A stretch of 64,000 nucleotides of DNA from Bacteroidota bacterium (GTDB lineage Bacteria; Bacteroidota; Bacteroidia; Cytophagales; Cyclobacteriaceae): contig JACOSO010000059.1 in the NCBI GenBank assembly GCA_016178785.1, positions 1-64,000 of the forward strand. The letters run 5' to 3'. This document shows, one piece after another, positions 15,663 to 29,322 of this stretch. Below the pieces are notes generated by a model. It was given only the letters and a program-made list of their open reading frames with translations. It made no database searches and had not been told where the DNA came from. The position numbers and the translations under genes were made by a program. Positions within the stretch are counted from its first letter, which is position 1. Every line of letters begins with the position of its first letter.

Positions 15663-16098
15663 ACTCGTTTCCACAGATGAAAAGATTTCTTATTCGCTTG
15701 AGCAGATTCATGAAGCGGCAAGGAAATTATTGAATGCGGGAAAGGGCACAAATGTGTGGGCGTTGCACGGACCAATGGGTTCAGGAAAAACAACGCTAAC
15801 CAAAACTTTGTTGATAGAACTTGGCTCGCATGAAACGGTCGCAAGCCCCACTTTTTCGATTGTTAATGAATATAGAAGCAGTGAGAATGAACCGGTTTAT
15901 CATTTCGATTTTTACCGGATCAAAAATGAAATGGAGGCTTATGACATTGGCACAGATGAGTATTTTGATTCCGGCCACTTGTGTTTGGTGGAATGGCCTG
16001 AAAAAATCCCTTCGTTGCTACCCGTGCAACATTTTGAAATCCACATCGAAATTGTAGACGAACAATCCCGTTTAATCCATTACCGAAAACATGCCTGA
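15655..16098 (+). CDS. tsaE: tRNA threonylcarbamoyladenosine synthesis ATPase TsaE
   Basis: This 147-residue P-loop ATPase has Walker A GPMGSGKTT and the family motif SPTFSIVNEY. TsaE works with TsaB and TsaD to make t6A at position 37 of ANN-decoding tRNAs; its ATPase cycle resets the TsaBD complex. HFDFYRI and the downstream acidic segment are typical of the family. The start overlaps the porX stop and the stop overlaps the ald start. Both overlaps are the identical 8-mer ATGCCTGA, so all three genes are probably translationally coupled. tsaB and tsaD are not in the window. Confidence 0.95.
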   Translation: MPELVSTDEKISYSLEQIHEAARKLLNAGKGTNVWALHGPMGSGKTTLTKTLLIELGSHETVASPTFSIVNEYRSSENEPVYHFDFYRIKNEMEAYDIGTDEYFDSGHLCLVEWPEKIPSLLPVQHFEIHIEIVDEQSRLIHYRKHA

Positions 16099-17314
16099 GA
16101 AAAAAAGTACCGGATTTGAAGCCCTGGCAAAAACGAGTCTATCTCCGCAAGAGCAATTGGTAAAAGTGAAGAAAGGAAAGAATTCTTTTTTCATTGGCCT
16201 TCCTAAAGAAATTGCCCTTCAGGAAAATCGAATCAGTCTTACCCCCGATGCTGTTGCCCTTTTAGTAAATAACGGACATGAAGTTTGGGTGGAGAGCAAT
16301 GCAGGTGCTGGAAGCAAATTTACCGACCGTGCTTACAGCGAAGGGGGCGCGAAAATTGTTTACTCACCCCAAGAAGTTTACAAAGCAGATGTCATTTTGA
16401 AAATTGAGCCCCCCACAATTGAGGAATTAGAGTACTTCAAACCGGGACAGACATTAATCTCGGCCGTTCAAATGGGTTACCTGAGCGAAGAACGAGTGCA
16501 AGCTTTGCTTCGCAAAAAAGTTACCGCCCTTGCCTATGAATTTATCGAGGACAAAGTGGGAGGTATGCCGATTGTAAGGGCCATGAGTGAGATTGCTGGT
16601 AGCACTGTGATGCTCATTGCAGCAGAATATTTGAGCACTGCAAAAAACGGAAGAGGAATTATTTTAGGAGGGATAACGGGAGTGCCACCAACGAAGGTGG
16701 TTATTGTTGGTGCAGGCACCGTTGCGGAATATGCTGCACGTGCCGCCCTCAGCTTAGGAGCAGAAATACAAGTGTTCGATAATCATTTGTATAAGTTACG
16801 CAGGATCAAACATACACTTGGTCATCAGTTTTATACTTCAACTATCGACACTGTTACGCTCAGCGAAAGTTTGAGAACCGCAGATGTGGTAATCGGTGCG
16901 TTGCGTGCTGAGAAGGGTCGGGCTCGTCATGTAGTGAGCGAAGAGATGGTGAAGGAAATGAAGCCGGATTCCCTCATCATCGATTTGAGTATTGACCAGG
17001 GCGGGTGCATAGCAACATCTGAAATTACGTCACTTGCCAACCCCATCTATAGAAAATTTGATGTGATCCACTATTGCGTACCGAATGTGGCCTCGCGGGT
17101 AGCAAATACAGCCACCACCGCATTGAGCAATATTTTTACGCCTACAATCTTACGAGCAGCAGAAGAGGGTGGAGTGGAGGAAATGATCTTTGCGCACAAA
17201 TGGTTCATGAAAGGAGTTTATGCTTACAAAGGCAGCCTCACGAACGAATCGGTTGCCCGTAAGTTTAAGATGAAGTACAAAAATATTGAGTTGTTGCTGG
17301 CAGTGAGGGTTTAG
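16091..17314 (+). CDS. ald: Alanine dehydrogenase
   Basis: This 407-residue NAD-dependent enzyme interconverts alanine with pyruvate and ammonia. The catalytic N-terminal domain contains IGLPKEIALQENRISLTPDA (Lys and Arg of the active site) and the Rossmann domain contains VVIVGAGTVAEYAARAA. The segment EPPTIEELEYFKPGQTL is characteristic of the alanine dehydrogenase/transhydrogenase family. It is somewhat longer than the usual 370 residues because of an N-terminal extension of about 35 residues (EKKSTGFEALAKTSLSPQEQ). It is the last gene of the porX operon. Its TAG stop overlaps the valS TAA stop on the other strand by four bases. Confidence 0.93.
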   Translation: MPEKKSTGFEALAKTSLSPQEQLVKVKKGKNSFFIGLPKEIALQENRISLTPDAVALLVNNGHEVWVESNAGAGSKFTDRAYSEGGAKIVYSPQEVYKADVILKIEPPTIEELEYFKPGQTLISAVQMGYLSEERVQALLRKKVTALAYEFIEDKVGGMPIVRAMSEIAGSTVMLIAAEYLSTAKNGRGIILGGITGVPPTKVVIVGAGTVAEYAARAALSLGAEIQVFDNHLYKLRRIKHTLGHQFYTSTIDTVTLSESLRTADVVIGALRAEKGRARHVVSEEMVKEMKPDSLIIDLSIDQGGCIATSEITSLANPIYRKFDVIHYCVPNVASRVANTATTALSNIFTPTILRAAEEGGVEEMIFAHKWFMKGVYAYKGSLTNESVARKFKMKYKNIELLLAVRV

Positions 17315-19968
17315 TGTAAGCCAATCAATCGTTCCTCCAATGACCTAATCTTCGTCTCCGCATCAGTTTTCTTTTTCTGTTCGAGTTCGATTACCTGAGG
17401 AGGAGCACCAGCTACAAATTTCTCGTTGGAAAGTTTTTTCATTACTGAAGAGAGGAAACCTTTGTTATACTCGAGCTCTTTTAAGATTTCTTCTTTCTCT
17501 TTTGCTGTATCTACCTTTCCCGCGAGCGGAATATAAAACTCGTGTGTGCCAACCATAAACGAAGTGGCGTTAGAGATTTTTTCAGCCACAGAGTCAATCG
17601 ATTTTAGGTTTGATAGTTTTTTTATTGCCGAAGCAAATCGGTCAATTTCTTTAGCCACGCCATTCACACTTAGTGCTAAACTCTCTTTAGGTGAAAGCCC
17701 TTTGGAGTTGCGTACGTTACGCACCTGAGTTACAACTTCGAATGCAACTTCACTCTGAGAAATTATTTTCTCATCAAATAATTTAGCTTTTGGCCATTCG
17801 GAAATAATAATACAATCTTCTTGTTTCTTCTCATTCAACTCATGCCACAACTCTTCCGTGATAAAAGGCATAAACGGATGCAACAATTTTAAAATTGATT
17901 CAAAGAAAGAAACCGTCTTCTGATAAGAAACTTCATCGATCGGTTTTCCAAATTCAGGTTTTACAATCTCCAGGTACCATGAGCAGAAATCGTCCCACAC
18001 TAACTTATAAAGCAAGTGCAGGGCATCTGACATTCTGTATTTTGTGAAGTGATCTTCCAGCTCATGAATGGATTGGTTCAACTTTGACTCGAACCACTCG
18101 ATGGCAACTTTGTTTTCTTCAGGTTGTGCGTGTTTCGAAACTTCCCATCCTTTCACAAGACGAAACGCATTCCAGATTTTGTTCGCAAAATTTCTTCCTT
18201 GTTCGCAGAGCTTTTCGTCAAATAGTAAATCATTTCCTGCAGGTGAACTGAAGAGCATTCCTGTGCGCACACCATCTGCTCCGTAGTTTTTGATCAGCTC
18301 GAGCGAATCAGGCGAATTGCCAAGTGACTTCGACATTTTTCTACCAAGTTTGTCACGAACAACACCGGTGAGATAAACATCTTCGAAAGGCTTTTCATCC
18401 ATGTATTCGTAACCTGCAATGATCATGCGTGCTACCCAAAAGAAAAGGATTTCAGGTGCAGTTACCAGAACCTTGGTTGGATAGAAGAATTTAAGATCAG
18501 CGTTTTGAGAGGCATTGATCTTTCCGTTTTCAAAATATTTCTCGTTAAAGCCTTTAAATACTTCTATTGGCCACAACCAGCTTGATGCCCAAGTATCGAG
18601 TACATCTGAGTCTTGAGTCAACTTTGAACTTTTAACTTTGAACTTTGAATAATAAAGTTTCTTTGCTTCTTCCTCATTTTCAGCAACCACATAATTCCCT
18701 GCTTCGTCATACCAAGCCGGAATGCGATGTCCCCACCACAACTGCCTGGAGATACACCAGTCGCGTACATTTTCCATCCAGTGACGATAGGTGTTCTTGA
18801 ATTTAGGAGGATACAATTTGATCTCGTCATTCTCTACAGCATCTTTAGCGCGAACAGAAATCTCTTTCATCTTCACAAACCACTGCAATGATAGTTTCGG
18901 CTCGACAACAGAGTTCGTCCTTTCACTTCGCCCGATTCGTGTAACGAATTCTTCTTCTTTAACCAAATGTCCGGCCTCTCTCAAATCTCTTACCATTTCC
19001 TTACGAACGGCAAATCGATCCTTCCCAACAAATTTTGGGAGCTCACATTTTTCGTTTAGCGTTCCGTCATCGTTGATTGTGTCAATAACAGGAAGCTTAT
19101 GTCGAAGGCCGATTTCATAGTCGTTCACATCATGAGCTGGCGTTACTTTCAAGCAACCTGTACCAAAAGTTTTATCTACGTAGTCATCAGCGATCACTGG
19201 GATCTCACGTAGAATAAAGGGCACCAGTACTTTTTTACCTATCAAGTTTTTGTAGCGCTCATCTGAAGGATTCACTGCAATGGCCACATCACCCATGATC
19301 GTTTCAGGTCGTTGAGTGGCGATAGTGATCCACTCTTCAGTGTCTTTCATTTTATAGCGAACCGAATAAAGCACTGAACGCTCACCTTCTTCTTTATACA
19401 AAACTTCTTCATTCGAAAGAGCCGTCTTCGCTTCGCAATCCCAGTTGATCATGCGCAGTCCCCGGTAGATATAGCCCTTGTTGTAGAGATCAACAAAAAC
19501 TTTGATCACGGCCTTGTAGTAATCAGGATCCATGGTGAAGTGCGTGCGTTCCCAATCGCAAGAGGCCCCCAGTTTTTTTAGTTGATCGAGGATGATACCG
19601 CCATACTTTTCTTTCCACTCCCACGCATATTTTAAAAACTCATCACGTGAAAGTGAAGATTTCTTGATCCCCTTTTCCCTAAGCATAGCTACCACGCGAG
19701 CTTCTGTCGCAATCGAAGCGTGATCGGTGCCTGGTACCCAACAGGCTTTTTTGCCTTCCATACGTGCTTTGCGGATGAGTACATCTTGAATAGTGTTATT
19801 GAGCATGTGCCCCATGTGCAACACACCTGTAACATTAGGAGGAGGAATGACTATGCTATAAGGTTCTTTATCTGCGGACGGCTCAGCATGGAAAAAACCT
19901 TGCTCCATCCAGTATTGATACCATTTGTTTTCCGTTTCGGCCGGGTTGTATTTAGTTGAGAGCGCCAT
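17311..19968 (-). CDS. valS: Valyl-tRNA synthetase with heptad-repeat insertion
   Basis: This 885-residue class I synthetase charges tRNA-Val. Present are the HIGH-type motif NVTGVLHMGHMLNN, the CP1 editing domain (GTGCLKVTPAHDVNDYEIG), the DVLDTWASSWLWP motif, KMSKSLGN, an anticodon-binding domain and a C-terminal coiled-coil arm (KEKEEILKELEYNKGF). Within it, residues YYSKFKVKSSKLTQDSD, immediately before DVLDTW, are encoded by four copies of an AACTTTN heptad (18620-18647 on the plus strand). The frame is intact and all catalytic motifs remain, so the enzyme should be functional. A TATTTTTG box lies about 30 bp upstream, but no good -33 element was found. Confidence 0.97.
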   Translation of the reverse strand: MALSTKYNPAETENKWYQYWMEQGFFHAEPSADKEPYSIVIPPPNVTGVLHMGHMLNNTIQDVLIRKARMEGKKACWVPGTDHASIATEARVVAMLREKGIKKSSLSRDEFLKYAWEWKEKYGGIILDQLKKLGASCDWERTHFTMDPDYYKAVIKVFVDLYNKGYIYRGLRMINWDCEAKTALSNEEVLYKEEGERSVLYSVRYKMKDTEEWITIATQRPETIMGDVAIAVNPSDERYKNLIGKKVLVPFILREIPVIADDYVDKTFGTGCLKVTPAHDVNDYEIGLRHKLPVIDTINDDGTLNEKCELPKFVGKDRFAVRKEMVRDLREAGHLVKEEEFVTRIGRSERTNSVVEPKLSLQWFVKMKEISVRAKDAVENDEIKLYPPKFKNTYRHWMENVRDWCISRQLWWGHRIPAWYDEAGNYVVAENEEEAKKLYYSKFKVKSSKLTQDSDVLDTWASSWLWPIEVFKGFNEKYFENGKINASQNADLKFFYPTKVLVTAPEILFFWVARMIIAGYEYMDEKPFEDVYLTGVVRDKLGRKMSKSLGNSPDSLELIKNYGADGVRTGMLFSSPAGNDLLFDEKLCEQGRNFANKIWNAFRLVKGWEVSKHAQPEENKVAIEWFESKLNQSIHELEDHFTKYRMSDALHLLYKLVWDDFCSWYLEIVKPEFGKPIDEVSYQKTVSFFESILKLLHPFMPFITEELWHELNEKKQEDCIIISEWPKAKLFDEKIISQSEVAFEVVTQVRNVRNSKGLSPKESLALSVNGVAKEIDRFASAIKKLSNLKSIDSVAEKISNATSFMVGTHEFYIPLAGKVDTAKEKEEILKELEYNKGFLSSVMKKLSNEKFVAGAPPQVIELEQKKKTDAETKIRSLEERLIGLH
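18620..18649. repeat. AACTTTN heptad tandem repeat inside valS
   Basis: There are four consecutive heptads on the plus strand: AACTTTG, AACTTTT, AACTTTG and AACTTTG, followed by AA. The array is 28 bp, not a multiple of three, yet the valS frame is kept. It encodes a lysine- and serine-rich loop just N-terminal to a conserved synthetase motif. The period matches that of intergenic arrays elsewhere in the window. Confidence 0.85.
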
Positions 19969-20120
19969 GGACTTGAAGAATAACTCTGATTAAGTCGGCA
20001 AAAATAGAAAATGCCCGCGACTTAGCGATAAAAAAAAAGTCACTTAGTAAGAGCGACTGTTCGATAATTTTTACGCTGGCACGCAGAAATATACTGTGCC
20101 TGCGTTTTTACAGTTATGTA

Positions 20121-20735
20121 TTACTTTTCTGTGTAGCTGAAAACGGTTGACCCAATAACCGCACCAGCGAGCGGAGCAACAATGTAAAGCCATACTTTAG
20201 AAAGGGAGCTGTTGCCACCCACCAGTGTATCAATTAAGCAAGGACCAAAACCTACAGCGGGATTGAAAGCACCGCCAGAGATTCCTCCACCGGCAAAGGC
20301 TGCAGCCAAAACCGTGAAGCCTATTGCGAGGCCAAAATAATTGTTACCCGATGTTGCTTTTGATACAGCCACGTTCAGCACCACAGACACCAATGCAAAT
20401 GTGAAAATGATTTCTATTAAGAGTGCAGCTATTGTCGAAGATGACGGATTTGGACTAGGAGCAAATGTATTTCCTGTGATGACATAAGCAATCAATGCAG
20501 CTGCGATGCTTCCAACAATTTGGAAGACCATATACATCCCTGCATCTTTTGTGTCGATTTTCTTTTGGAGCAATATCGCAAGTGTGACTGCGGGGTTGTA
20601 GTGTGCACCTGATACATGCCCGCCCATATAGATCATCACCATCAGCACACTGCCGATAGCTAAGGGGTTTCCCGTAAGCCCGATAACAAGCACGAGAAAA
20701 AAAGTGCCAATCAATTCGACAAGATATTTTTTCAT
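20121..20735 (-). CDS. MIP-family aquaporin with non-canonical selectivity filter
   Basis: This 204-residue channel has six transmembrane helices and two half-helices carrying NPA boxes: GAHYNPAVTLA in the first half and GAFNPAVGFGP in the second. In typical aquaporins and glycerol channels the second box reads NPAR, and the Arg forms part of the aromatic/arginine filter. Here that position is Val, so selectivity may differ from AqpZ or GlpF. It is shorter than most bacterial members (about 230) owing to tight loops. It stands alone, with 152 bp to valS downstream, and the methyltransferase gene ends 74 bp upstream of its start. The substrate (water, gas, a small neutral solute) cannot be decided from sequence. 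Confidence 0.9.
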   Translation of the reverse strand: MKKYLVELIGTFFLVLVIGLTGNPLAIGSVLMVMIYMGGHVSGAHYNPAVTLAILLQKKIDTKDAGMYMVFQIVGSIAAALIAYVITGNTFAPSPNPSSSTIAALLIEIIFTFALVSVVLNVAVSKATSGNNYFGLAIGFTVLAAAFAGGGISGGAFNPAVGFGPCLIDTLVGGNSSLSKVWLYIVAPLAGAVIGSTVFSYTEK

Positions 20736-20809
20736 GATGAAATGGTTTAAAATTTTTGGAGTCTCAAATATAAAGTCAGAAGGCAGAGTTGCAACGACTT
20801 ATTGGAAAT

Positions 20810-21520
20810 TTAAGTTTTCCATATTACTACTTCCCATCGAAATGCCCAGCGCCAACTCACTGAATAATTTCTTATCCCTGCCTGGCTGAGGATTCCTTCA
20901 ATTTCCTTTCTTGAAAAACCCCTTAACACAGAAAGGGGAGCATCAAATTTTACCATCGCAGATTTTGAGAAAAGTTTTGTCAAAAGTTTAATCGAGTAGT
21001 AAGCGAGAGGATGGCGATGAAGATCGTTAATTACTATTCCAATTCTACTTAGCGCATAAAGTTTCTTTATGATTTCAGCCAATTGCGCAGAGGTGAAATG
21101 GTGAAAGAATAAGGTGGCAGTAGCTACATCACATGTTTTCGATTCAAATTCTTTAGAGAAGATGTTGATCGTTTCAAAATTGATGTTGGCAAAATCTCGA
21201 GTATTGTTCTTCGCATATTCGATGATATTGGGATTAGCGTCAACTCCAATGAGATTTATGGGGGTTTTTCTTTTTGAAAATTCCTTAGACAGAAGAATAA
21301 GCATATCGCCACCACCGCAACCCAGATCAATGACCTCGAGAGAGGAGGAAATTTTTTTTTGAAGCAATGAATTGATTCCGTTAACTGTAATCTGATTGCC
21401 ACCTAATTTTCGATTGATGAATTCAAGCTCGCGCAATGTCTGATCAACCACTTCACCTTTGCAATTCAGATCGTCCATGATTTCAATTGCATTTGACCGT
21501 TCTGAAAAAATAGATTTCAT
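20810..21520 (-). CDS. Class I SAM-dependent methyltransferase
   Basis: This 236-residue protein has motif I VIDLGCGGGDMLIL, the acidic end of strand 2 in IGVDANPN, and DVATATLFFHHF in the substrate region. Its start overlaps the type III polyketide synthase stop by ATGA, so the two are translationally coupled. The C-terminal region (VLRGFSRKEIEGILSQAGI) is typical of small-molecule methyltransferases acting on phenols, quinones or polyketides. From context I infer that it methylates the aromatic product of the neighbouring polyketide synthase, in the manner of SrsB in Streptomyces. The exact position (O or C) cannot be predicted. Confidence 0.88.
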   Translation of the reverse strand: MKSIFSERSNAIEIMDDLNCKGEVVDQTLRELEFINRKLGGNQITVNGINSLLQKKISSSLEVIDLGCGGGDMLILLSKEFSKRKTPINLIGVDANPNIIEYAKNNTRDFANINFETINIFSKEFESKTCDVATATLFFHHFTSAQLAEIIKKLYALSRIGIVINDLHRHPLAYYSIKLLTKLFSKSAMVKFDAPLSVLRGFSRKEIEGILSQAGIRNYSVSWRWAFRWEVVIWKT

Positions 21521-22608
21521 GCTACATGAACTTGTAGGAGCACGCTTTCTAAGGTAAGCCCAGGGCCAAACGCCATGCCCATCATATATTCTTTGTTGTT
21601 TTGAGCGGAGAGGCCTGCAAGTATTTCTTTGAGTACAAAAATCACCGTGGGCGATGACATGTTTCCATATTCGCGAAGGACTTTAGTTGACGCAGTTAGC
21701 TTTCCGTCTTTGAGGTTTAATTCTTTCCCCACAGTTTCGAGAATTTTTTTTCCCCCGGGATGAATGGCGAAGTGATGTACCTGGTCTAAATCGATTTTCT
21801 TTTTTTGAGTCAGTGAAGCCAGCAACTTGTGAATTCCTTCTTGCAGGATTTGCGGAACATATGAAGAGAGCTTCATTTCAAAACCAAGATCGCCAATGCT
21901 CCAGGCCATGTGCTGCTCTTCACTGGTAACGATGTCGCTGTGAAAACCTTCGAGTGAATAATTAATTCCATCCTTAGGCCTTGACTCAACTAGCATTGCT
22001 GCTGATCCATCGGCAAACAAGGCATTAGCCAAAATGTTGTTTTCCGTAAAATCTTTTTGAAAATGTATGCTGCACAGCTCAGTACAAACGATAAGAACTT
22101 TTGCGCTGACGTTTGCCTTACAAATAGAATCGGCAACTTTCAGCGCATTGATTGCGGCATAACAGCCCATGAAGTTGATGCATATTCGTTCGGTTGATGT
22201 AGAAAGAGAAAGCGCGCGCACAATATCTATATCAAGGCCGGGAGCATACATGCCGGTGCAGCTTACTGTGATCAAATGAGTTACCTGCCTGATTTCCGCA
22301 TCGTCAATGCTTTTTTTTATAGCGTTCAAACTTAACGTGCATGCGTACTCGCGATAGACTTGCATCCGCTTGGCGGTGGATGGAAAGGGTTCAAGGCCTT
22401 TTGTGTTCGGATAAAATGTGAAATCATTTTCTTTCCCGTAATCATTTAAAACTGAATACCTTGTGTTTATTGCACTTGCCCTAAAAACAGCGTGCATTTT
22501 TCTTCGCTCTGTCTCGTCAAGAATAATTCGCTCCATGAACTTAGCAATTGCGGTTTGCTCGAATCTATTTTCTGGAACTGCTGTGCCGATGGAAGTGATG
22601 AATGACAT
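21517..22608 (-). CDS. Type III polyketide synthase (chalcone synthase-like)
   Basis: This 363-residue thiolase-fold enzyme keeps the catalytic triad. The nucleophile is Cys149 (NFMGCYAAINAL), with His283 (FAIHPGGKKIL) and Asn316 (YGNMSSPTVIFVL). The last motif and overall length distinguish type III synthases from FabH. The family condenses a starter acyl-CoA or acyl thioester with malonyl-CoA and cyclises the chain to resorcinols, pyrones or phloroglucinols. Neighbours are a methyltransferase (ATGA overlap) and, 142 bp upstream on the same strand, an FAD monooxygenase/reductase. This set resembles the srsA-srsB-srsC logic of phenolic lipid synthesis. The starter unit and product are unknown. 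Confidence 0.93.
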   Translation of the reverse strand: MSFITSIGTAVPENRFEQTAIAKFMERIILDETERRKMHAVFRASAINTRYSVLNDYGKENDFTFYPNTKGLEPFPSTAKRMQVYREYACTLSLNAIKKSIDDAEIRQVTHLITVSCTGMYAPGLDIDIVRALSLSTSTERICINFMGCYAAINALKVADSICKANVSAKVLIVCTELCSIHFQKDFTENNILANALFADGSAAMLVESRPKDGINYSLEGFHSDIVTSEEQHMAWSIGDLGFEMKLSSYVPQILQEGIHKLLASLTQKKKIDLDQVHHFAIHPGGKKILETVGKELNLKDGKLTASTKVLREYGNMSSPTVIFVLKEILAGLSAQNNKEYMMGMAFGPGLTLESVLLQVHVA

Positions 22609-22750
22609 GATTAGTCAAGATACAAGATTTGAAATTCCGATTCTAATTTGTTCTCAATTGTCAGGTAAAAGACTTCCTGAAGTATTTCAGCTTACAAATC
22701 GCGGATTTCAAATTCCCAATTTAGCGTGAAGAAATCTGAAATTTGTAATC

Positions 22751-23860
22751 TTAAAAAGGATTTCCGTGAGTGTTCTTCACAATTTGATTCGCGATAAACT
22801 TTGAATGGATGGGAAGGTTCACAGCGATGTTGGATACAAATTCATTCCCAAAAAGTTTTTGGACTTGTCGGCCGAACCACAAGTGACTCGCAAATTCTTT
22901 TTTCCAGATTGCAGTGTATTTTTTTTCCAATTGCCTCCGAGTAATGGAGTTGTTGCAAAAATCAGCAATGAGTTCTGCGGCAAGTTTCGCTGAACGGATG
23001 GCCATCGCCATTCCGTTGCCACAAAGTGGTGTGATCATACCCGCGGCATCGCCCAACATGAGCAAGTGATTGAAAACGGGCTCTTTCGTTTCGAAAGAAA
23101 TTTCGTTGATAGTTTCGGGCTTATCAAAAAGAAAATCGGAGTTTTCGAAAATATCTCTAAGAAGAGGGTTTTTCTTGAGAACTTTTTTTTCAAGGTTTTC
23201 AATACTGCCCGATTGCCTCAGTTTTTCGCGATGGACCAAATAACACAAATTGGTTTTGCTGCCTTCTATGTTGCTGATGCCGCAGTAACCTCCCTCAAAA
23301 TTATGAAGTGCGATGAGGTGGTCAGGGTGATCCGTTTTGATATGATACTTCACTCCAACATAAGGGGAGCGCTTGTTTACAAAATTTCTTTTAAACTCAA
23401 GGTCGAGTTTTGATCGCTTGCCGAAAGCGCAAAGCACAAGATCTGCAGTTAACGTTTTGTTGTTACTCTGAACGTGAAATTCATCTTCATCGAAAAGAAT
23501 GCTCGTAACTTCGTCATTCAATAAAAAATTGACCCCGCTTTTTTTAGCCTCCTCGTAAAGAAAATGATCGAACGAAAAACGACTGATTCCAAAACCCCCG
23601 AGATCAAGAGCGAGCATAGAGCTTTTGCCCGCTGCGGAGCTTAGTTGAAAAGTAGAAATAACTGGAAGTTTAAATTCTTTAGGGAATAAATTCTGCGAAA
23701 GAAGAAACGGAAGTGTTTCATTAGAGATATACTCGCCACAAACACGATGAAAGGGGTAAGTCTTCTTTTCGATTAGCGTTACTTTAATTCCTTTTCGTGC
23801 AAGCAAAATACTGGCTACCAATCCTGCTAATCCGCCACCAACGATGATTATGTTTTTCAT
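22751..23860 (-). CDS. FAD-dependent oxidoreductase (geranylgeranyl-reductase/hydroxylase-like)
   Basis: This 369-residue flavoprotein has an N-terminal dinucleotide fold IIIVGGGLAGLVASILLARKG, a conserved CGEYIS segment after strand 2, and the second FAD motif MLGDAAGMITPLCGNGMAMA. It belongs to the group-A monooxygenase / geranylgeranyl reductase-like class. Its position directly before the type III polyketide synthase suggests oxidation or reduction of the polyketide ring, or of a lipid substrate. This is inference from context, since the sequence alone does not separate hydroxylases from isoprenoid reductases. A 142 bp spacer with weak heptad character separates it from the polyketide synthase gene. 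Confidence 0.87.
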   Translation of the reverse strand: MKNIIIVGGGLAGLVASILLARKGIKVTLIEKKTYPFHRVCGEYISNETLPFLLSQNLFPKEFKLPVISTFQLSSAAGKSSMLALDLGGFGISRFSFDHFLYEEAKKSGVNFLLNDEVTSILFDEDEFHVQSNNKTLTADLVLCAFGKRSKLDLEFKRNFVNKRSPYVGVKYHIKTDHPDHLIALHNFEGGYCGISNIEGSKTNLCYLVHREKLRQSGSIENLEKKVLKKNPLLRDIFENSDFLFDKPETINEISFETKEPVFNHLLMLGDAAGMITPLCGNGMAMAIRSAKLAAELIADFCNNSITRRQLEKKYTAIWKKEFASHLWFGRQVQKLFGNEFVSNIAVNLPIHSKFIANQIVKNTHGNPF

Positions 23861-23881
23861 TTTGGAGGATAAATCGCTGCG

Positions 23882-25246
23882 CTAAGACTTAACGCTCTTC
23901 ACTTTCAGCGTGATGCCCTCAGTGCCGATCACTTCAACAGCTTCTCCTTTCTGAATATATTCTCCTCTTGTAAAAGCATCATACACATTTTCATCGATCA
24001 TCACTTTGCCGCTTGGGCGAAGAACGGTGTGTGCCGTTCCTGTTTTACCGACAAGACTTTTTTCCGTAGAGCGTACACTGTAGCCTTGTGAACTTTCTTG
24101 CGTATCGGTGAGTGCAATTTTCCTGAATGCTTTTGTCTCAGTAAGTTTTGCGCCACCAAAAAATAGAAGTAAAACCCCGCCAGCGAGCCCGCCCACAGCA
24201 GCAAAGGTTGCTTTTATTATATCACCTAGAGGCACGAATTCAAAATTGAAGAAATCATTATTGAGCATGATGAGAATGAGGGAGGTCACGGTGAGCGCGA
24301 TACCCGTAATTCCGGCAACACCAAACCCCGGAATGATAAATATTTCAGCAGCAAGCAAAATGATGCCCACCATCAACGCGATGATTTCCCAATATTCGGC
24401 AAGACCATTGAGGTAATAAGGAACCAAATAGAATACCAGAGCTACGAGCGCAGCGCCAATCGGGAAGACCGCACCTGGTGTTTGGAGTTCAAAATATATC
24501 CCGCCAATGATAATGAGGATCAAAAGCCCGCTGATGAATGGATTGAGAAAAAACGCAATTATTCTTTCTGTAGCTCCAAGTGTGAAATGATCAATCTCAT
24601 AGTTGTCGATTTTATTTCGCTTAAGAATTTCTTCAATAGAATTGACTTTTGCTTCGCAATAATGATACTTGATTGCTTCATTGGTGGTAAGCGTAATTAC
24701 TTTGCCCGCTTGTTTGATACTGTCGACCACCACACGTTCGTCCACCATACCTTCGGCAATGCGAGGATCGCGGTGATTTTCTTCGGCAGTCGATCGCATG
24801 ATTGACCGCATGTATGATTGGTATTTGTCGGGTGCGGCTTTGCCATCGCCTTCTACAACGGTGGCAGCGCCAATGCTCGCACCTGGCGACATATAAATGC
24901 TATCGCACGCAATAGAGATTAAAGCACCGGCTGATGCAGCATCAGAATTAATGAAAACCCAAATCGGCTTTTTGAAATCCATGATCAAGTCGACAATTTC
25001 CTTGGCATCAGTGAGCACGCCTCCGTATGTGTCCATGTCAACAACCACATAATCAGCATTCGTTTTCTCGGCATGTTCGAGTGAAAGTTTCACATAGCGC
25101 AACATGCGTGGGTCAATCTCAGCCTTGATGTCCATTACCATTACTTTCGATTTATCCATCAAAGATTTAGCGGGCGTGGACCTCTGAGCGTACAATCCCA
25201 GAGCAGAAAAAATAAAAACAAAGGCAAAAAGCAGTCTTCGAATCAT
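23882..25246 (-). CDS. NfeD/SppA-type membrane serine protease
   Basis: This protein is about 454 residues from ATG 25246 (a TTG lies 9 bp further up). A signal peptide (MIRRLLFAFVFIFSALGLYAQ) leads into a ClpP-fold periplasmic protease domain. Ser105 lies in SDAASAGALISIACD and Lys141 in APDKYQSYMRS, the Ser-Lys dyad of long-form NfeD proteins. Then come five or six transmembrane helices (about 235-370) and a C-terminal OB-fold domain (GKTGTAHTVLRPSGKV). Known relatives cleave hydrophobic peptides or stomatin-type proteins. Long NfeD genes are often beside SPFH/stomatin genes. Here no SPFH gene is adjacent, although two lie elsewhere in the window. It is divergent from the LysM gene. Confidence 0.93.
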   Translation of the reverse strand: MIRRLLFAFVFIFSALGLYAQRSTPAKSLMDKSKVMVMDIKAEIDPRMLRYVKLSLEHAEKTNADYVVVDMDTYGGVLTDAKEIVDLIMDFKKPIWVFINSDAASAGALISIACDSIYMSPGASIGAATVVEGDGKAAPDKYQSYMRSIMRSTAEENHRDPRIAEGMVDERVVVDSIKQAGKVITLTTNEAIKYHYCEAKVNSIEEILKRNKIDNYEIDHFTLGATERIIAFFLNPFISGLLILIIIGGIYFELQTPGAVFPIGAALVALVFYLVPYYLNGLAEYWEIIALMVGIILLAAEIFIIPGFGVAGITGIALTVTSLILIMLNNDFFNFEFVPLGDIIKATFAAVGGLAGGVLLLFFGGAKLTETKAFRKIALTDTQESSQGYSVRSTEKSLVGKTGTAHTVLRPSGKVMIDENVYDAFTRGEYIQKGEAVEVIGTEGITLKVKSVKS

Positions 25247-25256
25247 CGTTATCAAA

Positions 25257-25289
25257 TTGTATTTTTGTATAAAGATAGCTTACGTTTTG
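25257..25289 (+). promoter_or_regulatory. Candidate Bacteroidota promoter for the LysM gene
   Basis: A TTG (25257) stands 21 nt before TACGTTTT (25281-25288), one mismatch from the TAnnTTTG -7 consensus. It lies immediately upstream of ATG 25305, so the mRNA leader would be very short. An open frame beginning with this same TTG is therefore not taken as the gene start. Confidence 0.4.
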
Positions 25290-25304
25290 CAAATGGATTG
25301 GATC

Positions 25305-26327
25305 ATGAAAAGTTTAAACGGCTTCGGGCTTCAGGCCACAGGCTTCAAGTTGCTTGTGGCTTGTGGTTTGCAGCTTGCAACCATAAATAGTTATGCTTCT
25401 CCACCGGATTCTCTGAGAATGGAGACCATCAACGGAAAGCAATATATCATTCATCAGGTTGATCCGAAGGAAACGTTGTTTTCTATCTCCCGAAGGTATG
25501 GTGTGCCCGTCACTGATCTCGCTCAAGAAAACCCAAGCGCAGGTTCGGGTTTATCTGTTGGGCAGATTTTAAAAGTGCCTTACATTCCAAGAGTAAAACC
25601 AAGAACTGAAAATGGAAATATCGTGCATAAAGTGGCTCCGAAAGAGACGTTATTTTCCCTTTCTAGACAGTACGAGGTTACGTTAGATGACTTGAAGAAA
25701 TGGAATAACCTTACCGATAATGCGCTCAATGTTGGACAGGAAATTATTATTAAAAAGAAATCGACCTCATCAGAAGTTGCTCAGACCTCGGTCTTCAAAG
25801 ATAAATTGCCGGATGCGAAGACTTTGCGCGGGGTACATACCGTTACAGCTAAGGAAACTCTGTTTTCCATTTCAAAGATGTACGGAGCTACTGTGATGCA
25901 ACTGAAAGAATGGAATAAGCTTACGGGTGATGAACTGAAGCCGGGGCAAGTAATTTACGTGTTGCCTCCGGTGAGCACAAACGAAACATATCGATCAAGC
26001 GAATCGAGTCAGGTAGTTTCAAAGCCTGTACAAGAAATAAAGATTTCTGAGTCCGTCATCGGCTCTGACGAAATCCATGAAAAAGGAATGGCCGCTTTAC
26101 TGGAAGGCACAGATGGAAACCGCAAATATTTGGCGCAGCATAGATCAGCAAAGCCCGGCTCTATTATTAAGGTGCGCAACGAGGCTAACAAGCAAGAGGT
26201 TTTTGTGCGGGTGGTAGGCCAACTTGATTCAACGGATGAAACTTTGGTTAAGATTTCTAAATCTGCTTTTGATCGCCTCGGATCAAACGATCAGCGGTTT
26301 GCTGTAGAAGTAATCCGATTTAAATAG
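25305..26327 (+). CDS. LysM-repeat envelope protein with C-terminal double-psi barrel
   Basis: The protein is about 340 residues from ATG 25305 (ATG 25293 is an alternative). A hydrophobic N-terminus ending NSYAS looks like a signal peptide. Three LysM domains follow, each with the KETLFS(I/L)S signature, spaced by about 60-80 residues. They are predicted to bind peptidoglycan glycan strands. After a polar linker, a C-terminal domain (EKGMAALLEG ... SKSAFDRLGS) resembles an RlpA-like double-psi beta barrel. It lies 8 bp upstream of the first OmpA paralogue, so the three genes may act together at the wall/outer membrane interface. The signal-peptide codons consist of a heptad-period repeat (25321-25383), which is unusual for a gene 5' end. 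Confidence 0.88.
   Translation: MKSLNGFGLQATGFKLLVACGLQLATINSYASPPDSLRMETINGKQYIIHQVDPKETLFSISRRYGVPVTDLAQENPSAGSGLSVGQILKVPYIPRVKPRTENGNIVHKVAPKETLFSLSRQYEVTLDDLKKWNNLTDNALNVGQEIIIKKKSTSSEVAQTSVFKDKLPDAKTLRGVHTVTAKETLFSISKMYGATVMQLKEWNKLTGDELKPGQVIYVLPPVSTNETYRSSESSQVVSKPVQEIKISESVIGSDEIHEKGMAALLEGTDGNRKYLAQHRSAKPGSIIKVRNEANKQEVFVRVVGQLDSTDETLVKISKSAFDRLGSNDQRFAVEVIRFK
25321..25383. repeat. Heptad-period array in a signal-peptide coding region
   Basis: Nine successive 7-nt units, most opening with G and carrying GCTTC, GGCTT or GCTTG words (for example GCTTCGG, GCTTCAG, GTGGCTT), cover codons for the LysM protein's N-terminus. The left half (AGGCCACAGGCTT) is an imperfect inverted complement of the right half (AAGTTGCTTGTGGCTT). 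It resembles the intergenic arrays at 12536 and 60409 in period and geometry. Confidence 0.7.
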
Positions 26328-26334
26328 AATACTT

Positions 26335-27435
26335 ATGAAGGCATGGGCACCAATATTCTTTCTTGCCTGTGTTCAGATAGCATTGGCACAAAATCTTGTT
26401 CCCAATCCAAGTTTTGAAAAATACTATGACTGTCCCACTACTTATAATGAACAAGGTTCAAGTAAAAATCTAGCGCCTGGTTGGGTCTCTCCTACATTAG
26501 GTACTCCCGATTTGTTTAATCGCTGTAGTTTCGGCAATTCAGGTGTGCCTCACAATTGGGCTGGTATTGCACAAGCGCACAATGGATTTGGCTACTCAGG
26601 CATCTTTGGCTACAAGGACAACAGCGACTACAGGGAATATCTTCAAGCAAAATTGACTCGTCCTTTGCAAGAGGGAAGAAAGTATAAAGTTGAGTTTTAT
26701 TTTCGGCTTTCGATTTATTCAAAATACAGCATTGATCGGATAGGTGTTTTGCTTTCCGATTCTATGCAACATGTGCCTCACTATAATAGGTGGCAAGTGC
26801 AGCCTTCATTTACGCATGTGATGGATTCGGTCTATAGTAAAAAAACGGGATCGTGGAATCATGTCCTTTTTGAGTACGAAGCAAGGGGAGGCGAACAGTT
26901 TATCAGTATTGGAAATTTCTCAGCGAATGATGAGGTTCAAAAATTTCATTTAAGTTTTTCAAAAGCAGATGAACCACTGCTTAACAAAGCAGCCTATTTT
27001 TATATCGATGACGTTTCTGTTACACGCATTGAAGGTTCAGCTGCTGTGGTGGATTCGGTTGACCTCGCTACCAAGAAAGTAATTAAGCCCAACGAAGTAT
27101 ATATTTTAAAACACATTTACTTTGATTTTGACAGCTATAGTTTGATGCCACTATCAGAGCCCGAGCTAAACATTTTAGTTTCCATCATGAAAAAAAACCC
27201 AAAGTGGAAAGTGGAGTTGAGCGGTCACACCGATGATAAAGGCAATAATTTGTATAATTATAACCTGTCGCTTAATCGGGCAAAAAGTGTAGGATGGTAT
27301 TTGATACAGAGCGGTATAACTCCCAATCGAGTTATCTCTAAAGGGTTCGGTAAACTCAGGCCATTGAGCAAAGCCAAGACTGAAGAAGCCCGCGCAATTA
27401 ATAGAAGAGTTGAAGTGAAGTTTTTAGGGAAATGA
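26335..27435 (+). CDS. OmpA-family protein, copy 1
   Basis: This 366-residue protein has a signal peptide (MKAWAPIFFLACVQIALAQ). An N-terminal beta-sandwich region opens LVPNPSFEKYYDCP and continues with GVPHNWAGIAQAHNGFGYSG; it looks like a galactose-binding or adhesin-type fold. The C-terminal OmpA domain (about 255-366) has IYFDFDSYSLMP, ELSGHTDDKG, LNRAKSV and INRRVEV, the residues that bind diaminopimelate in peptidoglycan. It should tether the outer membrane or a surface structure to the wall. The next gene is a paralogue of identical length, overlapping by ATGA. Confidence 0.92.
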   Translation: MKAWAPIFFLACVQIALAQNLVPNPSFEKYYDCPTTYNEQGSSKNLAPGWVSPTLGTPDLFNRCSFGNSGVPHNWAGIAQAHNGFGYSGIFGYKDNSDYREYLQAKLTRPLQEGRKYKVEFYFRLSIYSKYSIDRIGVLLSDSMQHVPHYNRWQVQPSFTHVMDSVYSKKTGSWNHVLFEYEARGGEQFISIGNFSANDEVQKFHLSFSKADEPLLNKAAYFYIDDVSVTRIEGSAAVVDSVDLATKKVIKPNEVYILKHIYFDFDSYSLMPLSEPELNILVSIMKKNPKWKVELSGHTDDKGNNLYNYNLSLNRAKSVGWYLIQSGITPNRVISKGFGKLRPLSKAKTEEARAINRRVEVKFLGK

Positions 27436-28532
27436 TGAAATTCAAACTTTTGAAATGTCAAGTCATAGTTTGCCTTTGGTTGATTGCTCAATTGGGCTTC
27501 GCGCAGAAAAACTTAGTGCCTAATCCGGGGTTTGAAGATTACGTTAGATGCCCTGTGAGCTTTAGCACTGACCCGCTTCACTTTGGCCCAAATAATTGGA
27601 ATTCCCCTTCGCAGGGCACCCCGGACTATTATAACAAGTGCAGTATTGGCGATATGCATGTGCCCAATAATTGGGCGGGTGTTTCACATGCTCATTCAGG
27701 TATGGGTTATGCCGGAATTTATGCCTGGAGCACAAGTAAAAAAAATTACCGGGAATTTGTACAGTGTAAATTGGCCGAACCACTGAAGACTGGTTTTTTT
27801 TACAAGATTCGATTTTTTTACCGCCTCTCTTCGTATTCAGTTTATGCCATTGATCGTATAGGTTTGGCGTTGTCCAATGCGGAGGTAAAAGTCAGCTACG
27901 ATACGTTGCTTGATATTAAACCTGTTATAAGCGAAATCAAGAATTTAGAGACACTCACTAATGCCTGGCTTTCGGCTTCGGCAAAGATTCAGGCAAAAGG
28001 AGGGGAGCAGTACCTGATCATCGGAAATTTTTCGACTAATGATTCCACTGAAAGCATGAAAATTGACTATCGGGAGGGCAAAAGCCTGATGTTGGGTAGT
28101 AACGCGTATTATTATATTGATGATGTCAGTGTCATGCAGGATGAAATTACAGTTGCTGATAATGAACAATATATTGAAGCACCTAAGCTCAACGAAATTT
28201 ATATTTTGAAGAACATTCATTTTCAGTTTAACAGCTATGAACTTTTACCATCTTCATTTACTGAACTTGATGTTCTCATCTCTATTCTGAAGAAGAACCC
28301 AAATTGGAAAGTTCAACTGAGTGGTCACACAGATGATCAAGGCACGGAGGAGTACAATCTTCTTCTATCGCGAAACCGTGCCAAAAGTGTCGGAGATTAT
28401 TTAATGCAAAAAGGAGTAACCAGTGAACGAATACAAACGCTGGGATTTGGCAAACAAAAACCGATTCACGAAAGTACTGACGAAGCAGCCCGTGCTATCA
28501 ATCGGAGGGTAGAAGCAAAATTCCTCGATTGA
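27432..28532 (+). CDS. OmpA-family protein, copy 2
   Basis: This 366-residue tandem paralogue of the preceding gene has the same order: signal peptide ending LGFAQ, N-terminal LVPNPGFEDYVRCP domain with VPNNWAGVSHAHSGMGYAG, then a C-terminal OmpA domain with IHFQFNSYELLP and QLSGHTDDQG. The two proteins align end to end without large gaps but are clearly diverged, so the duplication is not recent. The 4 bp ATGA overlap makes co-translation likely. Divergence is highest in the middle of the N-terminal domain, which could give the two proteins different ligands at one wall anchor. Confidence 0.92.
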   Translation: MMKFKLLKCQVIVCLWLIAQLGFAQKNLVPNPGFEDYVRCPVSFSTDPLHFGPNNWNSPSQGTPDYYNKCSIGDMHVPNNWAGVSHAHSGMGYAGIYAWSTSKKNYREFVQCKLAEPLKTGFFYKIRFFYRLSSYSVYAIDRIGLALSNAEVKVSYDTLLDIKPVISEIKNLETLTNAWLSASAKIQAKGGEQYLIIGNFSTNDSTESMKIDYREGKSLMLGSNAYYYIDDVSVMQDEITVADNEQYIEAPKLNEIYILKNIHFQFNSYELLPSSFTELDVLISILKKNPNWKVQLSGHTDDQGTEEYNLLLSRNRAKSVGDYLMQKGVTSERIQTLGFGKQKPIHESTDEAARAINRRVEAKFLD

Positions 28533-28536
28533 TCAA

Positions 28537-29322
28537 GTGAAAGCCCCTGAGAAGAATTCCATTGAAGAACTAAAAGATTTCCTTGACGGGAAAGCTTATC
28601 ATTTCAATCAACCGAGTTTTATTGAACTTGATCCGATTTCGATTCCTCACCAATACCAAAAGAGGCAAGATATTGAAGTTGCAGGACTGATTGCAGCAGT
28701 GCTTGCCTGGGGGCAGCGGGTGACAATTATAAATAAGGCAAAGGATTTCCTGAATCGCATGGATGATTCTCCTTATGATTTTTTATTGAATCATAAATCA
28801 GAAGATTTGAAACAATTCAAAAATTATAAACATCGCACGTTTAATGAAACCGATGCACTGTATTTTGTAGAATTCCTTTCACAGTTCTATCAAAAATATG
28901 ATTCGCTTGAAAAAGCATTCGCGATATGCATAACTGATGATCATACCGGCAATGGATTGATTAATTTCCACCGCCTGTTTTTTAGCCTGGAAGATTTTCC
29001 ATTACGAACAAAAAAGCACATCCCAACTCCAGAAAGGAAGTCCGCATGCAAACGAATAAATATGTATTTACGATGGATGGTTCGCCAGGATAACAACGGA
29101 GTTGACTTTGGAATTTGGAAAAACATCTCGCCATCACAACTGATCTGCCCCTGCGATCTTCACGTGGAGCGAGTGGCCAGAAAATTAAAACTTATCAAAC
29201 GAAAGCAAATGGACTGGGAAACTGCACTTGAACTAACCGCTAATCTGAAAAAGCTTGATCCGGCCGATCCAGTGAAGTATGACTTTGCACTTTTTGGATT
29301 GGGTGTGATGGAAAAATTTTGA
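28537..29322 (+). CDS. TIGR02757 family protein
   Basis: This 261-residue protein matches the uncharacterised TIGR02757 family by its motifs YQKRQDIEVAGLIAAVLAWG, KSACKRINMYLRWMVR and DLHVERVARKL. The helical pattern with an LDPADPVKYDFALFGLG C-terminus recalls the HhH-GPD DNA glycosylase fold, a family-level suggestion not proved here. The start is GTG (28537), because no in-frame ATG occurs before conserved sequence. It begins 4 bp after the second OmpA gene and may be the last gene of that transcript. Confidence 0.85.
   Translation: MKAPEKNSIEELKDFLDGKAYHFNQPSFIELDPISIPHQYQKRQDIEVAGLIAAVLAWGQRVTIINKAKDFLNRMDDSPYDFLLNHKSEDLKQFKNYKHRTFNETDALYFVEFLSQFYQKYDSLEKAFAICITDDHTGNGLINFHRLFFSLEDFPLRTKKHIPTPERKSACKRINMYLRWMVRQDNNGVDFGIWKNISPSQLICPCDLHVERVARKLKLIKRKQMDWETALELTANLKKLDPADPVKYDFALFGLGVMEKF

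Follow-up and report, generated by a model that had tools for sequence, protein, structure and literature searches.

Long-chain alkylresorcinols are made by the type III polyketide synthases (PKSs) of a planctomycete operon and of hidABC, its cyanobacterial counterpart for hierridin (PMC10896814; PMC8086630). In planctomycetes, 58 of 96 PKS genes belong to a methyltransferase-oxidoreductase-PKS operon. Synthases expressed from this group yielded pentadecyl- and heptadecylresorcinols, and when the two other Gimesia genes were co-expressed one methyl group was added, probably on carbon (PMC10896814). In passages of these two papers, a prenyltransferase partner is reported only for one related cyanobacterial cluster (PMC8086630). 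A UbiA prenyltransferase gene is also close to a Micromonospora PKS locus (PMC7587189). The agqABCD genes of Actinoplanes missouriensis specify alkyl-O-dihydrogeranyl-methoxyhydroquinones: alkylresorcinols from a type III PKS are prenylated and hydroxylated, with a membrane-bound enzyme O-prenylating the polyketide (Awakawa 2011, as related in parts of PMC10896814, PMC7692728 and PMC4044012). The present analysis concerns a trio of PKS, methyltransferase and flavoprotein genes in a 64,000-nucleotide stretch (the window; positions 1 to 64,000 of contig JACOSO010000059.1, assembly GCA_016178785.1) of a Bacteroidota bacterium of the family Cyclobacteriaceae, together with a UbiA gene on another contig of that genome.

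The trio as a gene set matches the hierridin/planctomycete alkylresorcinol operon, and in itself is already known. In both settings a methyltransferase, a flavin adenine dinucleotide (FAD)-dependent oxidoreductase and a PKS are encoded, in the window likewise on one strand, although the order is flavoprotein-PKS-methyltransferase in the window and methyltransferase-flavoprotein-PKS in the described operons. All four agq activities compared here (PKS, methyltransferase, flavoprotein and UbiA) are present in the window's genome, a likeness drawn from descriptions of agq; that cluster is actinomycete, whereas the present genes form a Bacteroidota module which has a class I methyltransferase and is sometimes dispersed. 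What is probably new is this widespread Bacteroidota module of the trio plus UbiA; a pairing of PKS with UbiA in Bacteroidota was not recognized in titles and abstract openings of the papers listed by literature searches. The genes, their families, the catalytic residues, a diagnostic tryptophan and the co-occurrence of UbiA even when unlinked are the observations from which a four-enzyme module is proposed. On balance these sequence comparisons favor a Bacteroidota pathway to a prenylated phenolic lipid, with three of the four enzymes encoded in the window.

Results

A sequence-only reading of the window had described flavoprotein, PKS and class I methyltransferase genes on one strand, an intact Cys149-His283-Asn316 triad and an ATGA overlap. 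All of these features were located, with the residue numbering correct and the family matches far above chance:

22751..23860, minus strand: FAD-dependent flavoprotein, probable ring hydroxylase (369 amino acids; FAD_binding_3, 56.8 bits, cut-off 22)
21517..22608, minus strand: type III PKS, predicted alkylresorcinol synthase (363 amino acids; PF00195/PF02797)
20810..21520, minus strand: class I S-adenosylmethionine-dependent methyltransferase (236 amino acids; Methyltransf_25/31 above cut-off)
21517..21520, minus strand: ATGA overlap of PKS stop and methyltransferase start
22162..22164, minus strand: catalytic Cys149 codon
21760..21762, minus strand: catalytic His283 codon
21661..21663, minus strand: catalytic Asn316 codon
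21901..21903, minus strand: Trp236 codon, aligned to the PKS11 Trp (ArsB Trp281 position) that is tied to resorcinol cyclization
22072..22074, minus strand: Cys179 codon, aligned to PKS18 tunnel residue Cys205

The synthase matched Chal_sti_synt_N and Chal_sti_synt_C with 94.6 and 92.4 bits (cut-off 27). The methyltransferase matched Methyltransf_25 with 51 bits (cut-off 27) and PRK06202 with 136.9 bits, which is under the cut-off of 243. As the flavoprotein and PKS genes are 142 bases apart and the PKS and methyltransferase genes overlap, co-transcription of the trio as one operon is plausible. The base composition of the trio is unremarkable, and the genome (4.47 Mb in 100 contigs) contains a single match to the PKS C-terminal family.

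The PKS is tightly linked to UbiA in related genomes. The best 80 of 162 named PKS loci, several of which are cut by contig ends, were inspected and their neighbors clustered: UbiA was present in 64/80, the methyltransferase in 67/80 and the flavoprotein in 52/80. In all 64 loci with UbiA the gene lies divergently, on the opposite strand and upstream of the PKS. A single gene of a YceI-like family (c20) intervenes in six of these loci, and the called starts of UbiA and PKS touch or overlap in six. UbiA from one locus gave 68.6 bits against Pfam UbiA, and the family test of UbiA gave 70.9 bits (cut-off 34.2 in each case). Alignment of 31 sequences, comprising 27 of 57 UbiA proteins from the named loci, that of the window's genome and three from further genomes, revealed N54, D58, D60 and D187 of the Asp-rich motifs as invariant and D192 in at least 90% of rows. 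No UbiA gene is near the window trio. The orthologue in the same genome, one of three UbiA-family matches there, is on a different contig (C80:109217-110104) and is 69% identical to that of locus L067. The earlier description of a compact cluster thus overlooked the partner most tightly tied to the synthase. An AMP-binding ligase-like gene (L116:5502-7154) converges on the UbiA gene in this genome and is a possible acyl activator, or a chance neighbor.

Co-occurrence was assessed by searching 148 genomes of the window's family with each of the four proteins (UbiA, E≤1e-30; flavoprotein, E≤1e-30; methyltransferase, E≤1e-20). Absence of the PKS (31/148) was scored for 18 genomes that gave no match and for 13 whose matches were no more than weak FabH-like or divergent ones. 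The PKS was present in 117 genomes, UbiA in 114, the methyltransferase in 106 and the flavoprotein in 117; the complete set was found in 101/148 and none of the four in 29/148. PKS and UbiA occurred together in 114 genomes, with the PKS alone in three, UbiA alone in none and neither in 31. When one genome per genus was counted (84), the corresponding values were 65, 1, 0 and 18. PKS and flavoprotein were both found in 115 genomes, PKS alone in two, flavoprotein alone in two and neither in 29; for PKS and methyltransferase the values were 104, 13, 2 and 29. Two genomes, G004 and G131, have the flavoprotein and methyltransferase with a divergent PKS. UbiA is located ≤400 bases from the PKS in 98/114 genomes and is divergent in 95/114. 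The genes are not adjacent in 16/114, being >50 kb apart on one contig in nine and on separate contigs in seven, which include the window's genome. Joint absence of PKS and UbiA inside genera was seen in G094 and G143.

The prediction that UbiA is retained where it is unlinked was checked by whole-genome search. Sixteen named loci lacked UbiA in the stretch read; with L074, L082 and L092 left out, 12 of the remaining 13 PKS genomes contain UbiA elsewhere (E≤1e-67). One of these 12 (L051) is G017 of the 148, so that 11/12 are new. The 80 named loci and the 148 genomes overlap, with four synthases seen in common. In a phylum sample of 345 genomes, which overlaps with the 148, UbiA reached E≤1e-40 in 23, every one of which possesses the PKS at E≤1e-88, and 14/23 are outside the window's family; 28 further UbiA matches (26-35% identity, all in f23 genomes) were excluded as possible paralogues. 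The converse fails: 154/345 genomes have a PKS match at E≤1e-25 and many lack a strong UbiA match, many such PKS matches being in f23 at ~40% identity or near 30% elsewhere.

Two neighboring genes served as controls. The aquaporin gene beside the window trio is present in only 3/148 genomes (E≤1e-25) and was rejected as a pathway component. A close orthologue of lipoprotein c4, whose gene is beside UbiA, is found in 19/148 (E≤1e-70), including G094 and G075, both without the module, and the lipoprotein was dismissed as context.

The residues of the synthase were compared in 110 rows (106 distinct), namely the window PKS and 109 fetched PKS loci (L003-L111). The Cys and His of the triad are present in 110/110 and the Asn in 109/110, the remaining row being gapped there. 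W236 and C179 are each kept in 110/110. The earlier view that this is a gene set of the phenolic lipid kind is upheld. C179 aligns with Cys205 of the PKS18 tunnel. W236 aligns with the Trp of PKS11, and a Trp also is present in the Streptomyces synthase of locus L165, compared with a Leu in the alkylpyrone synthase PKS18 and in Ectocarpus PKS1. In ArsB of Azotobacter vinelandii the position is Trp281, at which a Gly substitution switches the product from resorcinol to pyrone (PMC6274091), and the Trp is conserved in FtpA, SrsA, PKS10 and PKS11 (PMC5916927). Trp at W236 therefore favors resorcinol formation by the window enzyme without proving it. The AlphaFold model of the PKS, built from an alignment of 42/74 eligible named loci plus the window, has a predicted local distance difference test (pLDDT) score of 91.3, and its Foldseek matches are type III PKSs. 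In the Azotobacter system, which has ArsB and ArsC, acyl chains are supplied by the fatty acid synthase ArsA (PMC6274091), whereas no such gene was recognized near the window trio. Consistent with the earlier reading, inspection by eye revealed neither a ligase nor an acyl carrier gene near the trio among open reading frames of at least 80 amino acids at 16000-29000 or, beyond this interval, among those of at least 130 amino acids.

The flavoprotein is less readily assigned. Its AlphaFold model (pLDDT 90.5; alignment of 37/50 eligible named loci plus the window) has halogenases (PltA, Z 36.9; ChlB4, Z 36.8) and phenol hydroxylases as nearest folds, with 3-hydroxybenzoate 6-hydroxylase as the best hydroxylase match at Z 33.9; these modeled matches do not decide between hydroxylase, halogenase and reductase. 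The top NCBIfam match is a geranylgeranyl reductase subfamily (TIGR02032), for which the score of 111.7 bits falls short of the cut-off of 158.8, and agq products bear a dihydrogeranyl group (PMC7692728). A prenyl-chain reductase or a halogenase instead of a ring hydroxylase is compatible with the rest of the proposed pathway, and is an unlikely assignment that nevertheless retains appreciable weight. At loci L154, L155, L156 and L161, flavoproteins 43-49% identical and methyltransferases 37-43% identical to those of the window adjoin another type of synthase, which is PKS11-like and has Phe at the W236 position; in their genomes (G168, G229, G225 and G004) this UbiA gave no match at the cut-offs used. 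As relatives of both proteins accompany another PKS where this UbiA is missing, both probably act on the polyketide; action on the aromatic polyketide is more likely than on the prenyl chain. Moreover, the halogenase motif WxWxIP reads GYCGIS in the window flavoprotein.

The hosts of these four loci (L154:6828-12199, L155, L156 and L161:9257-14900) are Flavobacteriaceae-like genomes, by inferred lineage, and G004 of the window's family. At L154 the trio is followed by genes for a FabA-like dehydratase, a ketosynthase, an acyl carrier protein (ACP) and a phosphopantetheinyl transferase, and is a different, ACP-linked cluster. By size alone, the open reading frames at L155, L156 and L161 are roughly similar to those of L154.

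The position of the window synthase in the PKS tree bears on the origin of the trio in this genome. In the congener G137, the genes for UbiA, PKS, methyltransferase and lipoprotein c4 follow in that order on one contig (C87). In the window's genome, UbiA and c4 are separated by 611 bases on C80, and these 611 bases contain no significant remnants of PKS or methyltransferase (best tblastn E value 0.051). The congener PKSs of G017 and G137 are in a 99/98 clade that excludes the window PKS, whose branch is long (1.08) with the fork above it open. Simple relocation of the native PKS is disfavored because the two same-genus copies group apart from the window PKS, and replacement fits better than a move. 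The tree and gene order moderately favor replacement or displacement, by a foreign trio, of the native PKS-methyltransferase pair that adjoins UbiA in the congener, over a native copy that moved and diverged rapidly.

Elsewhere in the tree, synthases of the window clade from a Psychrobacter plasmid (L143), a metagenome-assembled genome (MAG) named Tatlockia (L092) and a gammaproteobacterial MAG (L098) are nested among Bacteroidota, for which horizontal transfer is the likely explanation. The adjoining flavoprotein and methyltransferase genes of L143 and L092 are only 25-32% identical. Deinococcus plasmids (L144 and L145) have a PKS-methyltransferase-flavoprotein trio with synthases near those of f21 and f23 genomes.

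Discussion

In the proposed pathway the PKS would load a fatty acyl thioester, extend it with three malonyl units and cyclize the chain through aldol condensation, giving a 5-alkylresorcinol or a resorcylic acid. The flavoprotein would then hydroxylate the ring to a hydroquinone-type core, the class I methyltransferase would methylate carbon or oxygen, and UbiA would attach a prenyl chain in the membrane. The predicted product is probably a prenylated, methylated, ring-oxidized lipid of the alkylresorcinol type. The substrates, order of steps, prenyl length, attachment through carbon or oxygen, and a role as membrane phenolic lipid or quinone are inferred.

Several observations weigh against this pathway. 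Nothing in the analysis measures chemistry, and the product is a prediction. Characterized bps kin are pyrone makers. The Trp at W236 is not exclusive to resorcinol makers, being carried also by bps-type and Rhizobium rows, and pyrone production is described for PKS11 itself and for Rhizobium etli RePKS (PMC6274091). Ring hydroxylation is not certain, with halogenases among the nearest folds of the flavoprotein. The Asp of the flavoprotein DG motif is missing in 38/38 flavoproteins and mostly replaced by Phe or Tyr. The PKS is unaccompanied by this UbiA in three genomes (G032, G103 and the 60% complete G119), and at the cut-offs used 13 PKS genomes lack the methyltransferase and two lack the flavoprotein. 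Among the 13 genomes searched for unlinked UbiA, one, a gammaproteobacterial MAG, encodes the PKS but yielded no UbiA. For trios outside this clade, the stretches read contain no UbiA gene. Finally, the counts ignore kinship apart from the tally of one genome per genus.

An alternative is that the trio is a plain hierridin/planctomycete cassette producing a methylated, hydroxylated alkylresorcinol, and that UbiA belongs to a separate pathway retained by the same lineages. This would accord with the three activities shared with the planctomycete operon, the synthases of which gave resorcinols on expression (PMC10896814), and with trios from Deinococcus, Psychrobacter, Roseomonas and Paludisphaera, and probably from f23 genomes, for which the stretch read shows no UbiA. 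The synthase of Paludisphaera shares 35.9% identity with that of the window and is on a long branch (2.17) outside the window's clade. Set against the plain cassette are the adjacent and divergent placement of UbiA in 95/114 genomes, its absence from every one of the 148 genomes that lacks the PKS, and its retention elsewhere in 12/13 genomes without a linked copy, which render separate pathways improbable.

The sequence-only reading had termed the locus srs-like, after srsABC of Streptomyces griseus. The term holds for the PKS, methyltransferase and flavoprotein activities, but neither for the methyltransferase family nor for the PKS clade, as judged by proxies. A Streptomyces plasmid locus of srs architecture (L165) encodes a methyltransferase of the ICMT family (PF04140; 98.1 bits), in contrast to the class I enzyme of the window, and a bps-type pair on a Lysinibacillus plasmid (L166) combines a PKS with a methyltransferase annotated as ICMT. 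The phylogeny that had been suggested against SrsA, with the Streptomyces proxy and PKS11 standing in for SrsA, placed the window PKS in a different clade: a 100/98 branch parts it from the synthases of L165 and L166 and from Mycobacterium tuberculosis PKS11, in a tree in which Steely1, Rhizobium, Paludisphaera and Sphingobium rows are on long branches. Strict srs membership, meaning orthologues of SrsA, SrsB and SrsC that make alkylresorcinol-derived quinones, was rejected through these proxies as very improbable, notwithstanding the shared activities and the resorcinol-position Trp common to the window, PKS11 and Streptomyces synthases.

The four-enzyme pathway has consequences for how such loci are read. 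An orphan type III PKS is the score to be expected from genome-mining tools; with the UbiA partner taken into account, a prenylated membrane lipid is expected in place of a simple resorcinol. Possession of both PKS and UbiA by 114/148 genomes of one family resembles core metabolism rather than an accessory antibiotic. By the same proposal, an overlooked lipid may be produced by many members of this bacterial group. A bolder and doubtful extension is that an undescribed prenylated alkyl-hydroquinone or quinone, made by a conserved four-enzyme module, would be a standard membrane lipid of many Cytophagales, Sphingobacteriales and some further Bacteroidota, serving as a second redox-active lipid beside menaquinone, and that in the window's genome a foreign trio would have replaced the native genes with the native UbiA kept.

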